NCBI GenBank assembly: GCA_021202895.1
Contig: JAJQCE010000024.1
Span: 57,910-121,909, forward strand
DNA: 64,000 nt
Reading direction: 5' to 3'
Source of the DNA: Ruminococcus sp.
GTDB lineage: Bacteria; Bacillota; Clostridia; Oscillospirales; Ruminococcaceae
Below, one piece after another: positions 13,296 to 28,958 of the stretch. The translations under genes were made by a program, and so were the position numbers. How positions within the stretch are numbered: the first letter of the stretch is position 1; each line of letters starts with the position of its first letter. Below the pieces are notes generated by a model. It was not told where the DNA came from, ran no database searches, and was given only the letters and a program-made list of their open reading frames with translations.

Positions 13296-14164
<869 letters not shown>

Positions 14165-17084: not shown

Positions 17085-17831
17085 TTATTCTAAATATCCA
17101 ACTAAAATCGTTCTCGAATCGTTGCTGTCCCTTGTGCAGGTTGAAAGAACCACCAGATTTTCTTCGGTAAGCTCACTTGGTTCAAAGTCGGTTTTGCAGA
17201 TTGCAACATCTGAAAGCATCTCTAAATAGGTTTCTCTGTCAGATTTTGCAGGGTGAACCACGCTGTAAACAAATGCGTCGCTTTCCACAACTGCGCAGGC
17301 TATGAAGCTTATAGTCTTAATTTCATGCTCCAGCGTCAGCGTGCCAGTCGGGTGTTCGTTGAAGTAGGTCTGATTCTTGAAGTTCAGAAGTGGGGCGAAA
17401 ATGTACTTGTTCGAGTAGTTGTGACCGTAGATTATCGAGTTAAAATCGGTGAAATCGGAGCTGTTTCTATAGTCTAGAAACGGGCAGCCGTACACGCTGT
17501 AATCCCCCTCAAAGCTATGCTTAAGGTAATAGGAGTTATCCTCGCACTGCATTACGGGGAAGTCTATCGCTGTATCTGGAATGTTGAGCCATGCTACCAT
17601 CTGCGGATTTATCGCCTGAGCGTCGGCTAGAAGGTTGACTTCATCGCTTTCTTCACCGCTCGGCTTGACTGAAGAATAAATCTGAGTCTGCGCTTCGTAA
17701 TCCTCTGATGTATTGGTTTCGCTTGATTGACTGAAATAGTAATATGCCGTGCCGCCAATAATTATCAAAATTAACAAAATTATAATCACAGTCGCAATAC
17801 GGCGTTTGCGCTTGCCTTTAGTCTTCTTCAT
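17085..17831 (-). CDS. Class B-like sortase
   Basis: N-terminal TM; MVAWLNIPDTAIDFPVMQ, SIIYGHNY, VVLSTCT catalytic Cys motif. Confidence 0.88.
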   Translation of the reverse strand: MKKTKGKRKRRIATVIIILLILIIIGGTAYYYFSQSSETNTSEDYEAQTQIYSSVKPSGEESDEVNLLADAQAINPQMVAWLNIPDTAIDFPVMQCEDNSYYLKHSFEGDYSVYGCPFLDYRNSSDFTDFNSIIYGHNYSNKYIFAPLLNFKNQTYFNEHPTGTLTLEHEIKTISFIACAVVESDAFVYSVVHPAKSDRETYLEMLSDVAICKTDFEPSELTEENLVVLSTCTRDSNDSRTILVGYLE

Positions 17832-18636
17832 CGGTCACGTTTGCGTTATTATATGTATCCTGATAATCGTCAAAATATCCTGCGATTATGTCGCCATTTT
17901 CATCATCATCGCCAAAGCTTGTAATTTCTACCATTCCAGTCGGAACGCACTGAGCGGTGACTATTATGTTATAGTCGGTGTCGAAAATGCCGTCGTATTC
18001 AGCTTTCAGAACTGGGATTAAAATATAGTCGAACAAATTTTCGGTATTACCACCTGCGGCTAGAGCGGCTAGTTCAGCAGAATTTGAACCTGTATAGTAG
18101 AACCAACCTGTATAATCATATGTAACTGTGCTGTCTTCATCGTCTGTTACAGCATCGCTATCATCATCATCATAATAGTAGAACGCAGAATTTTGGCTCG
18201 ATACACCATCATCGCCAAACTCATAAAGCTGATATGAAGTTCCCTCATCATCTGTTGAAGTGGAATAAAAATATATCGCAGAAAGTATCGCTTTGCCTCT
18301 TGCCGAGTTGGTGATGTCTTCTCCGTTTTCGTCCGTTATCGTTATCTGCATACGGATATAGACTTCGGTGTCGGAATTGTTGAGGACGTATGGGTCTTTG
18401 GCTATCGTCATACCTGGCTCGCTCAGCTTGGCGTCAGATTTGCCGCTTGAGTACCAGCTCGGCTCTAAAAGTGAGATTTGGTACTCCTGCGCTTCAAGCT
18501 CGTTTGTTACGGTGTCTCTGCTGGTGAAAAATGCCAGTGTGATTCCTGCAATTAGGAGCGCAGCAAGCAGAACTATTATGCAGATTGTATAAGTTGTGCG
18601 CTTGCAGCTGAACAGCTCTTTAATTTTCGTACTCAT
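17818..18636 (-). CDS. TasA/camelysin-like protein with SipW-type signal
   Basis: ALLIAGITLAFFTSRDTVTNELEA signal region. Confidence 0.7.
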   Translation of the reverse strand: MSTKIKELFSCKRTTYTICIIVLLAALLIAGITLAFFTSRDTVTNELEAQEYQISLLEPSWYSSGKSDAKLSEPGMTIAKDPYVLNNSDTEVYIRMQITITDENGEDITNSARGKAILSAIYFYSTSTDDEGTSYQLYEFGDDGVSSQNSAFYYYDDDDSDAVTDDEDSTVTYDYTGWFYYTGSNSAELAALAAGGNTENLFDYILIPVLKAEYDGIFDTDYNIIVTAQCVPTGMVEITSFGDDDENGDIIAGYFDDYQDTYNNANVTDEED

Positions 18637-19165
18637 TGCGTTCCCTCCTTTTGCTTTTTATCCATCTGACAAGTGTGAAAGCTGCTCCTAAAAGCAGATA
18701 TGCCGCCAACAGGCAGATTATTACAACTATCACTCTGCGAACGGTTGTGCTATTGGTGTAAAATGCCAGAGAACCTATTTTTGGGATTCCGAAAACCACC
18801 TTGCCAAGGACGTTTTGATAGTCTGACGGGGTGGAATCGGCGGTGTTGTTCATGTCGCCTTTGGTGTAAATCTGCTCGTTTTCCGTGTCGTTTTCTACCA
18901 CTCTGTGAGTTACCACAGCATCGCCGCTTGTCACGAATGAAATCACATCGCCCTCGGCTAAATCCTCCGGTGCAGTGTTGTCAACTAAAACCAGTGTGCC
19001 AACGGGGTAAATATTTTTCATGCTCTGGGTTTTCACCACATAGAATCTGTAGCCGAAAGCGTACAGAGCAATCATTGCTATTCCTATAAAAGCCATCAGC
19101 GCAAATACTAACGACGTCAGAATGTGCGCTGCTTTTTTTACGTATGTAAGTTTGTTATGCGCCAT
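18620..19165 (-). CDS. SipW-type signal peptidase I (intact)
   Basis: VKTQSMKNIYPVGTLVLV (Ser), AVVTHRVVE (His), IYTKGDMNN. Confidence 0.88.
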   Translation of the reverse strand: MAHNKLTYVKKAAHILTSLVFALMAFIGIAMIALYAFGYRFYVVKTQSMKNIYPVGTLVLVDNTAPEDLAEGDVISFVTSGDAVVTHRVVENDTENEQIYTKGDMNNTADSTPSDYQNVLGKVVFGIPKIGSLAFYTNSTTVRRVIVVIICLLAAYLLLGAAFTLVRWIKSKRRERNEYEN

Positions 19166-19982
19166 TTAGCTCTCCGCCCTGAGTATCTTCGTTTTCACGG
19201 CTGTTACGTCTTTTTTTAATTAAAATGGCTATCAGGATAAAAATTATAAGTATTGCCAAAATCGCAATTACTGCGAAATATCCAATATTTCCGGAATCGA
19301 AAATTCCAGTGTTCGGAGGCGTGTATTCCTCGTCAACCGCCGCATAAAAAATCCACCGAAACCACACCTTGCCCTCGATATAGTTGTCGCCGCTTTCAGC
19401 TTCCAAAATTTCCACTCCATCAGAGCTTACAAGCCTTGTGCCATAATTCTTAAAATAGTCCGCTGTGTCGCCCGTCCATGTTATCGACACGCTAAGCGTC
19501 GCAGAATCGTTCGGCTCGTACAGACCTAAATCAATAGGTTCGTCCGCTAAATTCACAGTGCCGTCAGAGCTAAGTCCTGACACTGAGCCTGTAAAAACCT
19601 CCTCGCCGTCCAGGGTGAAAACTGCCGTGCAGCCGTCCTCAAGGTTAAAATCTCCGCTCCAGCCTATCGGCTCGGCATAGAAATAAATGTGATAAGCCTT
19701 GTCCTCTCGCAGGTTCATAATTTCAATATTTTTAGTGTACTCTGTGTCCGGCTGCATATTTTCCACATAGAAAAAATACTCGCCGTCCTCGCTCACTGCG
19801 TTGCCATCGCTGTCCATAACTGTCAGCTCTTCCAGAAGTCCCGCTGCCGTTCCATCGGGCAGTGTGACCTCCGCAGCCGCCGAAAGCGTGCTGCAAAGAA
19901 TCAGAGCGGCAGACAGAAATGCTGACAAAGTAAATTTGACTGCGCTTTTCATTAGCCGCTCTCCTTTCATAATTCTATGCAA
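19155..19982 (-). CDS. Surface protein with sortase-type C-terminal anchor
   Basis: Signal peptide; C-terminal PPNTG + hydrophobic segment + KKRR tail; directly upstream of the sipW/sortase genes. Confidence 0.72.
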   Translation of the reverse strand: MHRIMKGERLMKSAVKFTLSAFLSAALILCSTLSAAAEVTLPDGTAAGLLEELTVMDSDGNAVSEDGEYFFYVENMQPDTEYTKNIEIMNLREDKAYHIYFYAEPIGWSGDFNLEDGCTAVFTLDGEEVFTGSVSGLSSDGTVNLADEPIDLGLYEPNDSATLSVSITWTGDTADYFKNYGTRLVSSDGVEILEAESGDNYIEGKVWFRWIFYAAVDEEYTPPNTGIFDSGNIGYFAVIAILAILIIFILIAILIKKRRNSRENEDTQGGELNGA

Positions 19983-20107: not shown

Positions 20108-21268
20108 TTAATCACCATTACCTGATGCGCTAGGATCAGACCAAGTTACTGTTGTTGTGGTGTTAGCCACTTTCGTTTCATCATCTGCATCTTTAACAAT
20201 GATTCCCTCTTCATTCACATAGACTTTATTATTATCATCAATCGATGCTTCATATCCCCATCCTAGAGCGTTTACAGCCTCTGTACTAACTTCGCCAACT
20301 CCGTTTTCTCCAACGTTTTCTGTAACAGCCTGTGCACTAGCAAGAGCTACATTCAGATCATAAGTAAATGAAGTATAAGCTTCAGCAGTAACGTCATCAT
20401 CAAGCTCCATAGCTTTTACAAGCAGCTCAGATGTTTCACCTGCGCCAAGAACGTGGTTGTAGTAGAATGTCCACGTGTCAGTGTCATAAACCGCTGTCCA
20501 GTTATCTTTATAATCATCGTCAAGATAAATGTTAATTACGATGTCGTCAGCAGTTGAACTTGTATCAGTACCAGCATATGTAGCCGTGATGTACCAGCCT
20601 GTACTTGCATTACCTAAAATTGTAGAACTGAAAGTGATTGTAGCATTATCAACCGTTTTCTCAACAGCATAACTAGCTGTATATGTGCCTTCACTTTCAC
20701 TGATAGAGCTTACTTTGTAATAGATATTATCATCTGCATCATAATAATACCCTACATAAGTACCATCCGAACGCTCAAAAACATACAACCCTGTTGTTGA
20801 AGGTGTATAATCCTCAGAAGAAACAGTATTGTCAGTAATTGTTTCACCTGCCGCATAAACAAGCTGTCCGCCCGCCTGAAGCGAGGTTACCTCATCAGAA
20901 GTAAGCGTCACGTAAGTATCAGACCCATTTGCACTTGGAATATCTGTTGATGTACTTTCATACGTCAAGCTTAATGTATCCGTCAGTTCAACCTTAACAA
21001 ATGCCGCAACATTTCCTGTGTTTACTGCCGCAACTTCCTTTGTGATAGTCTGTCCCGGAGTCCACTGCTCGGGCGGTGTGAAATCTTCAGTAATTGATAC
21101 GCCGTAGCTGCTCGACGCACTAAGCTCGTTGACTACCGTGTCCTCTGATGTAAACCAAGCGAACGTGCCGCCGATTGCAATTAAAGCGGCGAGAATAACA
21201 GACGCCACCAACGCCCTTTTCTGCTTGGCATTTTTCTTTTTGTTCTGTGTAGTTGTTGTACTTGTCAT
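20108..21268 (-). CDS. TasA/camelysin-like exported protein
   Basis: ALIAIGGTFAWFTSEDTVVNELSASSSYGVSI SipW-cognate signal pattern. Confidence 0.78.
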   Translation of the reverse strand: MTSTTTTQNKKKNAKQKRALVASVILAALIAIGGTFAWFTSEDTVVNELSASSSYGVSITEDFTPPEQWTPGQTITKEVAAVNTGNVAAFVKVELTDTLSLTYESTSTDIPSANGSDTYVTLTSDEVTSLQAGGQLVYAAGETITDNTVSSEDYTPSTTGLYVFERSDGTYVGYYYDADDNIYYKVSSISESEGTYTASYAVEKTVDNATITFSSTILGNASTGWYITATYAGTDTSSTADDIVINIYLDDDYKDNWTAVYDTDTWTFYYNHVLGAGETSELLVKAMELDDDVTAEAYTSFTYDLNVALASAQAVTENVGENGVGEVSTEAVNALGWGYEASIDDNNKVYVNEEGIIVKDADDETKVANTTTTVTWSDPSASGNGD

Positions 21269-21322: not shown

Positions 21323-21967
21323 TTACTTATTTTCAGACTGCTCCTCGACAGCCTTTTTTCCTTTATTCTCAGACGGTTCAAGATAAATCCTAAGCAGCCT
21401 AAAGAAGATAAATATCAAAACAATAATCGCAATTACAAAATACCATCTTAGCTGAACAAATTTGATTATGTAGCCCAGCTTCGGAATACTAAACGTAACC
21501 TTGCCGATAACCCTGCTCTCGTCAAGCAAAAAGCCGTCCTCGTCCTCGTTAGCGTCGCCCTTTGTTGTAAAGCAGGTAACGCCCGTGCCCTCGTAGTCGT
21601 CAAACTTCTACGTAACTCTATGCGTAAGATAAGTATCGTAATCGCTCGACGGATTAAAGGTAATAACATCGTCAACCTCAATCTCGTCCGCATCGCAAAC
21701 CCTTACGATAACCAAATCCCCCACCGAAAGCTCAGGCTCCATCGAGGGAGTAAGAACCGTGTAGTAACGGTAGCCGAAAATCGACTTGTCATTGCTCCTG
21801 TCAGCCGCAAATATCAAAGCCGCAATGATAATGCAAATCGCCAGCAAATAAATGAAGATATTTCTAAAAACCCTCAAGACAGCCAACCCGACAGCCTTAC
21901 CGCTGTGCGAATCACCCTCGACCGCCGTTTCCTTAACCTCATCACTCATCTCGGTAAAGCTCACCAC
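21323..21967 (-). pseudogene. SipW-type signal peptidase interrupted by one in-frame TAG
   Basis: Frame reads ...TPSMEPELSVGDLVIV...TYLTHRVT-TAG-KFDDYEGTGVTCFTTKGDANEDEDGFLLDESRVIGKVTFSIPKLG...; same frame on both sides of the stop at 21608-21610. Confidence 0.85.
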
Positions 21968-22010: not shown

Positions 22011-22955
22011 TTAGTCATCTTCGTCATCTGTGCCATCATCAGTGGTTTCCGTAGCCTCTTCCGTTGCCGCTGTAGCAGTTGTCGCTTGTACGAGCGAGCT
22101 GTTTTCATCAATTGAAACATTACTCCAACGAGCGTCAACCGCACCGCCCTCCGTCTGAATCGCATCGGTAAGCACATCAATTTGTAGTGTGATGCCATAT
22201 TCTTCAAGGATTGCATACGTGTCACTTGAAATTGTAACGCTTGCTAAAAGCTGCTCGGTAGTATCTCCCGCCTCAACGGCAGTCTTGTAATAAAAATACC
22301 CATCAGCCGAGTTGTAGAACCAGTATTCAGACCAGCCATCAGCTAAAGTAAAGGTAACATCGCCGTTGGTGAAAGAAGTCGCCGTGCCATCTGCAAGCGA
22401 ATCTGAATCAGTTACCGCTGTGAGCTCATCAAAAGATTCAAGCCCATATTCCGCAGCATCACCCGATTGAATATCAACGTCAATTTCACTTGTAGATGTT
22501 TGAGTTTCACTATTTTCATCTTCATATTCGCTTGTAGTTGTAAGCGTTGTCACATATCTGGGAACTAAAGCAACACGAACGTAGGATTTAACGTAATTGC
22601 TGTCAGCAGCGCTAGTTGTCGTAATCTCAACAGGCTTTGAAGCCGTATAAGATACAACCTCAGACCCGTTTTCATCAGACGAAGTGTCCTCCGACCAAGT
22701 TACGGTATTAGTTTTTTCCGTTATATCAGCATATGAAGATGAGTCAATTCCGCTCTCCGTTACCGCAACCTCAATCTCCGCAGGCGTGAAGCTGTTAGTC
22801 GCCGACTTATTAACTTTGGTGTCGCTGTTTGCAAAAACCGAAAGCACGCAGGCAACCGCAAACGCAAGCAGTGCAACAATTATAATCGGGACTCTATATT
22901 TTTTAAATGTGCTAGTATTTTCCAAATCAGCGCCGTCCTTTCTTTTCCAAATCAT
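22011..22955 (-). CDS. SipW-dependent exported protein, first gene of fibre locus
   Basis: Signal anchor with ACVLSVFANSDTKVNKSATNSFTPAEIEV; an alternative TTG start near 22925 has a better RBS (AAAGGA). Confidence 0.65.
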   Translation of the reverse strand: MIWKRKDGADLENTSTFKKYRVPIIIVALLAFAVACVLSVFANSDTKVNKSATNSFTPAEIEVAVTESGIDSSSYADITEKTNTVTWSEDTSSDENGSEVVSYTASKPVEITTTSAADSNYVKSYVRVALVPRYVTTLTTTSEYEDENSETQTSTSEIDVDIQSGDAAEYGLESFDELTAVTDSDSLADGTATSFTNGDVTFTLADGWSEYWFYNSADGYFYYKTAVEAGDTTEQLLASVTISSDTYAILEEYGITLQIDVLTDAIQTEGGAVDARWSNVSIDENSSLVQATTATAATEEATETTDDGTDDEDD

Positions 22956-23009
22956 CAGACGCTAAAAAAGTCATTTCAAAATTTCACATCATATTTCACT
23001 ATCAAAAAA

Positions 23010-23049
23010 ATTATACACCATTTATTCAACTTTGTCAACCCCCCCCCCC
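23010..23049 (-). promoter_or_regulatory. Consensus promoter with adjacent poly-G(11) tract
   Basis: Minus strand G11-TTGACA-N17-TATAAT; C-run at 23039-23049, -35 at 23033-23038, -10 at 23010-23015. Confidence 0.85.
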
Positions 23050-23276
23050 TTAAAAAAAATCATTTAATCAGTCAAAATTCATCATTTTCAATAAATTCTC
23101 CGCCTAAAAACTGTTGGATTTGCACAGTTTTTATATTAACAATTTCAAATGAAATTCATATCGTTACAAATATTCATTTTCCAAATCATTATTATCAAAT
23201 TTAAACTTATACAAATTAAACCCATTTTTCCTATTTAAACCCATTTTGCTCAAAATACAATTTTTTTGTTGTAGCC

Positions 23277-23549
23277 CTCTTGACAAATGCAAAAAAATGT
23301 GGTATAATAAAAGTATGATGTCTCCCGTCTCTTAGGCGGCGGGTGCCATTCTGACTTTCAGTAGGGGATATAATCCCCTACTGAAACCCAGCGGAGCTGG
23401 TAAGAACATGGTAAGAACATTTTTTTGGACGAAACTAATGTTCTTACAAGTTCCGTGCGGAACAAAAGTTACTTACGCTCCGAACTTTTATTGCAAGCGT
23501 TCGCAATCAAGCTTAAGCAAGCTTAGCTTGCCTTGCTCCGCTTTAAATA
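23277..23549 (+). repeat. Promoter-bearing hairpin-rich repeat element, copy 1
   Basis: CTCTTGACAA...TATAATAAAAGTATGATGTC...GCTTTAAATA; near-identical inverted copy at 29831-30092. Confidence 0.88.
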
Positions 23550-23559
23550 GATGTGCAAT

Positions 23560-23641
23560 GCGGGTGTGGTGAAATTGGCAGACACGCAAGATTTAGGTTC
23601 TTGTGCCATATGGTGTGCAGGTTCAAGTCCTGTCACCCGCA
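23560..23641 (+). tRNA. tRNA-Leu(TAG)
   Basis: GCGGGTG/CACCCGC acceptor, TTTAGGT anticodon loop, GGTTCAAGTCC T-arm. Confidence 0.92.
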
Positions 23642-23644
23642 TGA

Positions 23645-28772: not shown

Positions 28773-28958
28773 TTGACAAACTAGAATAAATGTGGTATAA
28801 TAAAAATGATAAGCTTAGTCTTATCGTATGGAAGTTCTAGACTTCTGTAAAAAGAGGTGCGTCCTACCGTATAAGTGGAAATCTTACAAGAGGTGCGTCC
28901 TACCGTATAAGTGGAAATCTTTAAAAAGGCTGTGGATTTTTTCACAGCCTTTAATTTT
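28773..28958 (+). ncRNA. Putative small RNA gene with tandem 33-nt repeat (promoter and terminator included)
   Basis: TTGACA-N17-TATAAT (28773-28801); 5' hairpins; two perfect copies of AGAGGTGCGTCCTACCGTATAAGTGGAAATCTT with 36-nt period; terminator AAAGGCTGTG...CACAGCCTTT. Confidence 0.75.

Follow-up and report, generated by a model that had tools for sequence, protein, structure and literature searches.

What does a run of eleven G residues do when it abuts the −35 box of a perfect promoter, and can a change in its length alter the expression of the operon behind it? The question is raised by a window of 64,000 nucleotides from Ruminococcus sp., i.e., G000:C31:57910-121909 of a 2.1 Mb assembly (G000, called the own genome below). 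On the minus strand the sequence from 23060 to 23010 reads T8AA-G11-TTGACA-N17-TATAAT upstream of a SipW/BsaA-like/class B sortase operon, and here the preliminary description, which had proposed a phase-variable switch, proved correct in motif and position. The explanation favored here, which we consider probable with some reserve, is that G11 is a slippage-prone contingency tract located between a distal UP-like A/T block and the −35 box, and that it tunes the transcription of the fibre operon in steps.

The tract, its promoter and the fibre operon

The candidate contingency tract (23039-23049, minus strand) is the only G/C run longer than six in the window, where, at 40% GC, there are 452 runs of length 3, 59 of length 4, 11 of length 5, one of length 6 and then the single run of 11. 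Extrapolation of the tail predicts about 1e-4 runs of at least 11 per window, and the motif G8TTGAC, present once, was seen in none of 100 dinucleotide shuffles, so that the earlier view of the homopolymer as a strong outlier is well founded. The tract is much longer than composition predicts, as expected of a contingency locus, and it abuts the −35 of a surface-fibre operon, where a change in length could alter expression. The core promoter (23010-23038, minus strand) consists of TTGACA at 23038-23033 and TATAAT at 23015-23010, separated by a 17-nt spacer that is free of any tract; since the tract sits outside the −35/−10 interval, its length leaves the spacer unaffected, as had been claimed. 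Upstream of the tract lies the A/T block ATTTTTTTTAA (23050-23060, minus strand; approximately −57 to −47), which is a candidate distal UP subsite. In its position upstream of −35 the tract agrees with the distal-spacing geometry of the sabA/nadA type, for which the A/T block may be the functional element further upstream.

Within the 6 kb scanned, the core promoter matches the sigma-70-type consensus at 12 of 12 positions, and the sole other 12/12 site lies on the plus strand (23280-23308), facing the tRNA-Leu gene at 23559-23642. Between this perfect promoter and tRNA-Leu there is a copy of a repeat element (23309-23391, plus strand), composed of ATGATGTCNCCCGCC... followed by the hairpin CTTTCAGT...ACTGAAA; the sister-species copies of the ATGATGTCNCCCGCC element contain G9 inside the hairpin. 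An invertible promoter was rejected, as suitable flanking inverted repeats are missing: the scan at the promoter returned nothing beyond a 29-nt match (76%) that pairs the divergent consensus promoters with each other, a local hairpin of 19 nt and a few short matches made up of A/T. A known RNA element at the promoter was rejected as well, since tRNA-Leu alone reaches the gathering score.

Genes of the operon, all on the minus strand, were named with NCBIfam profiles and their cut-offs. Gene 1 (22011-22925) encodes an exported BsaA-like protein that weakly resembles the SipW-dependent type (TIGR04090, 23 bits, below the cut-off of 60). Its start is likely the in-frame TTG at 22925 and not the ATG at 22955, judging from AAGGA upstream of this TTG and from the sister-species orthologue, which starts at TTG as well. 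No relatives of gene 1 were found in the searched collection of genome contigs, which may omit close records. The following gene (21323-21967) encodes a SipW-type signal peptidase and is interrupted after 119 codons by an in-frame TAG at 21608-21610 (minus strand), while the 218-aa sister-species orthologue is uninterrupted. Next come a BsaA-family SipW-dependent matrix protein (20108-21268; TIGR04090, 101 bits against a cut-off of 60, with TIGR04088 also over its cut-off), a secreted, membrane-anchored cluster protein without family that is 65% identical in the sister species (19155-19982), a second, intact SipW-type signal peptidase (18620-19165; TIGR02228, 82.6 bits, cut-off 51.9), a BsaA-like SipW-dependent protein (17818-18636; TIGR04088 over cut-off, TIGR04090 43 bits) and a class B sortase (17085-17831; TIGR03064, 156.7 bits, cut-off 153.75). 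The combination of SipW-type peptidase with BsaA/TasA-like substrates identifies a SipW-dependent, BsaA-type matrix fibre locus, in which gene 1 itself stays below cut-off. The promoter does precede the first gene of the cluster, as had been proposed, and the earlier SipW/TasA-like/sortase naming is refined to SipW, BsaA-like and class B sortase. Two other repeats occur in the window: a perfect (AAT)11.7 at 14128-14162, beginning at the stop codon of the gene 13296-14132, and an intergenic perfect tandem repeat of a 36-nt unit (x 1.9) at 28852-28921.

G tracts at surface genes of the genome and the family

Pattern searches for G9 and G8, followed by a context script, revealed 14 interior G/C runs of 8-11 in the own genome, i.e., several such loci in one genome, as would be expected of contingency loci. 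Twelve of them are at least 9 long, against 0.13-0.32 expected per genome from composition. Two lie upstream of −35: the window G11 and, on contig C18, a G8 followed after 8 nt by TTGACA-17-TATGAT. Three lie inside promoter spacers (C19, TTGAAA-18-TATAAT; C26, TTGACA-16-TATACT; C21, spacer of 14), which is the spacer-length placement of the porA type. Eight tracts are coding, some of them out of frame, and lie in genes for glycan enzymes, the sulfatase-type synthase and surface proteins: a sulfatase-type synthase (C9, in frame), a membrane protein (C24, out of frame with the upstream ATG), a secreted LRR/fn3 protein (C28, out of frame with the signal peptide), two hexapeptide transferases and one Wzy-type ligase of a polysaccharide cluster (C20), the last codons at the C-terminus of a nucleotidyltransferase (C10) and a short ORF (C10). 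A further tract lies just 5′ of an ORF on C8 that reads as IscB-like. Thus, most tracts are found at exported proteins, surface-protein promoters and glycan enzymes. Contig C31 breaks off in pure G/C sequence (G000:C31:220940-221035), immediately 5′ of the TTGACA-17-TACAAT promoter of an LRR (BspA-type) protein of 951 aa; this is probably another tract that reads could not cross. At G000:C21:11208 there is a tract-in-spacer promoter whose upstream part is nearly identical to that of C19 and which runs directly into sequence resembling what follows the coding tract in a surface gene, an arrangement such as recombination of two loci at their G tracts might leave behind. Loss of mismatch repair was rejected as the cause of tract abundance, since a mutS1 match over cut-off is present in 10 of the 10 genomes checked.

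The genome of a sister species (G003, a MAG) contains a syntenic operon with 44-70% identity over the matched parts, the sortase being divergent there and located upstream of the promoter. The orthologous promoter reads G10-TAGC-TTGACA-N17-TACAAT, so the tract is in the matching place and differs in length; both hexamers can be aligned with those of the window, as can TTGAATAAATG within the spacer, and short stretches of upstream sequence are common to both. As a sign of length variation, G11 versus G10 is suggestive only. Two further surface genes keep the tract class across both species with differing lengths: an anchored-protein-like gene (48% identical) has a spacer tract in both (G9 with spacer 18 versus G10 with spacer 19), and the G003 homologue of the LRR gene at the end of C31 has G9-TAT-TTGACA at its promoter. 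In the own genome the membrane synthase of sulfatase type (LtaS-like) has an in-frame tract on the C strand at codon 200; the tract of its G003 counterpart is out of frame, on the G strand and close to codon 380. These are independent tracts in one gene, which is hard to explain unless switching was selected for.

What follows the tracts is also not random. In the own genome 11 of 14 tracts are directly followed by TA, compared to 8% of G4-G6 runs in the same DNA (p ~4e-10), in G003 it is 14 of 18 distinct tracts against 8% (p ~2e-12), and in six further family genomes TA stands directly after 76 of 108 tracts, with TA counts and tract totals taken from separate tallies. Within the genus, the TA preference is slight in the majority of the remaining members. 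The rule holds in promoters and coding sequence alike and on either coding strand, so that it is a feature of the DNA for which codons or −10 boxes by themselves do not account. Insertion of a tract with TA as one unit was rejected for the sulfatase-type synthase, where the alignment is ungapped across the G003 tract (SSYGYS vs QGGGYQ). The window tract breaks the rule, while its G003 orthologue obeys it, and this counts against its explanation as a contingency tract.

How far does this architecture extend? Tract-upstream promoters, searched as G8+, 0-8 nt and TTGACA-16-18-TANNAT, were found in 4 of 347 family genomes, which belong to two genera. Promoters with the tract in the spacer occur in 18 of the 347, covering 11 of 95 genera, and in both searches the reversed control pattern gave 0. 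The spacers of the latter range from 12 to 21, a scatter that is as expected if slippage gave rise to it. In the other genus one genome has G10 abutting TTGACA, as in the window, ahead of a signal-peptide protein. Two more tract-upstream sites of this genus precede an ORF with an MshEN-matching N-terminus, a type seen in pilus/secretion ATPases, and G9-TTGACA of an unrelated clostridial MAG stands before an N-terminus similar to the MshEN type, a likeness judged by eye. In 85,488 genomes, one per species, the strict tract-upstream pattern occurs in 35 stretches; roughly 20 belong to MAGs of clostridial type, and an estimated handful would be expected by chance. Exported-type N-termini lie downstream of 27 of 36 tract promoters versus 48 of 113 background ORFs (p=6e-4, crude hydropathy test). 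The zero-offset motif G8TTGACA was found, among 60 relatives, in the own genome only, because the offset from tract to −35 varies; both the tract length (8-11) and this offset (0-8) vary freely between promoters. Thus, the window tract is one of many G tracts that accompany surface genes throughout the genome and the family, and very likely it is one dial, prone to slip, among putative surface switches spread over the genome. A wider proposal, possible but to be taken as tentative, is that this clostridial family runs a broad G-tract phase-variation system, which comprises tract-upstream, tract-in-spacer and frame tracts at surface genes, with the rule of TA after the tract on the G strand pointing to some process on the level of DNA, be it a preference in replication, in repair or in nicking, by which tracts arise or are retained at such sites.

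Possible action of the tract and competing explanations

If the tract slips, it would gain or lose one G during replication in a fraction of cells. With the core spacer fixed at 17 bp, each such change would shift the upstream A/T block by 1 bp and rotate it by about 35 degrees relative to RNA polymerase, and anything bound at the block would move likewise; transcription would then change stepwise, and fibre expression would differ between sister cells. The positions of proximal and distal subsites come from the E. coli UP-element map. On the assumption that transcription starts approximately 7 nt after the −10 box, G11 falls at about −46 to −36, in the proximal UP subsite, and the distal one is taken by the T8 block, which spans about −57 to −47. 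We infer that the tract is hypermutable in this strain, that the C-terminal domain of the alpha subunit touches the A/T block and that the effect on expression is graded. Since the −35/−10 distance is fixed, a graded effect via upstream contacts is likelier than an on/off one, unlike in the tract-in-spacer promoters of the own genome, where a change in length alters this distance. The preliminary proposal of a switch therefore stands in part: genome- and family-wide G tracts at surface genes bear the marks of slipped-strand phase variation, but to speak of a switch probably goes too far. Also in favor of a graded response via upstream contacts are recurring A/T blocks, which lie upstream of the tract in most of the 16 tract-upstream promoters compared; the mean A+T of the 25 nt upstream of the tract is 0.78 in these 16, versus 0.53 for the loci, in intergenic DNA that is A/T-rich anyway. 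For that last reason the UP-like block may be incidental. The perfect core promoter may fire strongly whatever the upstream spacing, and both points count against tuning.

Could a protein be the sensor of spacing instead? Length would then vary and act via a DNA-binding regulator bound upstream, as NadR at nadA, and not through an UP element. The geometry permits this, nadA is a precedent (PMC2791445), and short upstream stretches are shared with the sister species; however, beyond the core promoter a comparison of the two species shows no evident conserved operator upstream, and the promoter has no regulator gene as its neighbor, since tRNA-Leu lies on the divergent side here and the sortase in the sister species. 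We regard such a regulator as rather unlikely. Still less probable is that the tract is hypermutable and neutral for expression, a leftover of a lineage tendency to grow G tracts. Tracts do occur at non-surface sites, i.e., beside the IscB-like ORF, in the last codons of the nucleotidyltransferase and in the repeat element of the sister species, but they preferentially occupy promoters and genes that serve exported and glycan functions, and some of these promoters or genes have a tract in both species. A tract of stable length, serving as a fixed structural part of the promoter (a stiff spacer or a protein site), would fit the position kept in the sister species and the similar elements in another genus; the free variation of length and offset between promoters and the high frequency at which G9-G12 runs slip in Bifidobacterium breve (PMC9187656) make it very improbable. 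Finally, the G/C-only stretch by a TTGACA promoter at the end of C31 indicates that G-tract read-through is poor in this assembly, but a sequencing or assembly artefact is highly implausible, given that the window tract lies inside its contig between unbroken flanks (its true length may still deviate from 11), that the sister-species assembly has it too and that independently assembled family genomes share the architecture.

Comparison with known phase-variable systems

The best descriptions of phase variation through slipping homopolymers concern mucosal Gram-negatives, spirochaetes and a few Gram-positives, e.g., Bifidobacterium. No report of G-tract phase variation in this clostridial family was found in full-text searches, which covered open-licence papers only, so novelty is unproven. 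Many sampled relatives in the family come from animal guts. If the tracts slip, little-studied commensals would make surface diversity stochastically, in fibres, wall or capsule polymers, LRR proteins and perhaps pili; this would affect interactions with host and phage, and also the reading of strain variation from metagenomes, where G tracts break assemblies.

The T tract of Helicobacter pylori sabA lies upstream of −35 and acts through upstream polymerase contacts, and the repeat of Neisseria meningitidis nadA is a tetranucleotide. The sabA gene encodes a surface adhesin, and the tract in its promoter region was reported to vary by slippage (PMC2715451). The likeness consists in a homopolymer outside the core spacer of a surface gene promoter; the differences are that sabA has poly-T in a Gram-negative bacterium and that its effect was shown experimentally, whereas here it is inferred (PMC2715451). 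At nadA the repeat is distal to the core promoter of an adhesin gene, and its length alters upstream spacing and the level of expression (PMC2791445). As in the window, this repeat is outside the core promoter of a surface gene, but the repressor NadR and IHF are involved there, and promoter length variants differed little after repressor removal (PMC2791445).

Poly-G occurs in the surface-protein promoters of Treponema pallidum tprE/G/J, tp0126 and tprL, and at tprL eight Gs gave more reporter signal than ten (PMC7864442). However, this is a spirochaete, the tp0126 tract is between −35 and −10, and the products are outer-membrane proteins of Gram-negative type (PMC7864442). As far as they are described in the same paper, the poly-G in the spacer of Neisseria porA resembles the tract-in-spacer promoters of the own genome, and the poly-C over the −35 region of opc resembles tracts overlapping −35 (PMC7864442). 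The porA spacer mechanism cannot apply to the window promoter, since this keeps its 17-bp spacer; as the own genome holds tract-upstream as well as tract-in-spacer promoters, graded and on/off designs are comparable in one organism. Lifestyle and product are similar in B. breve, a Gram-positive gut commensal in which slippage of G9-G12 governs a sortase-dependent pilus or surface fibre, and for which trouble in sequencing G tracts was also reported; there, however, the tract is intragenic and switches the reading frame, and does not belong to a promoter (PMC9187656).
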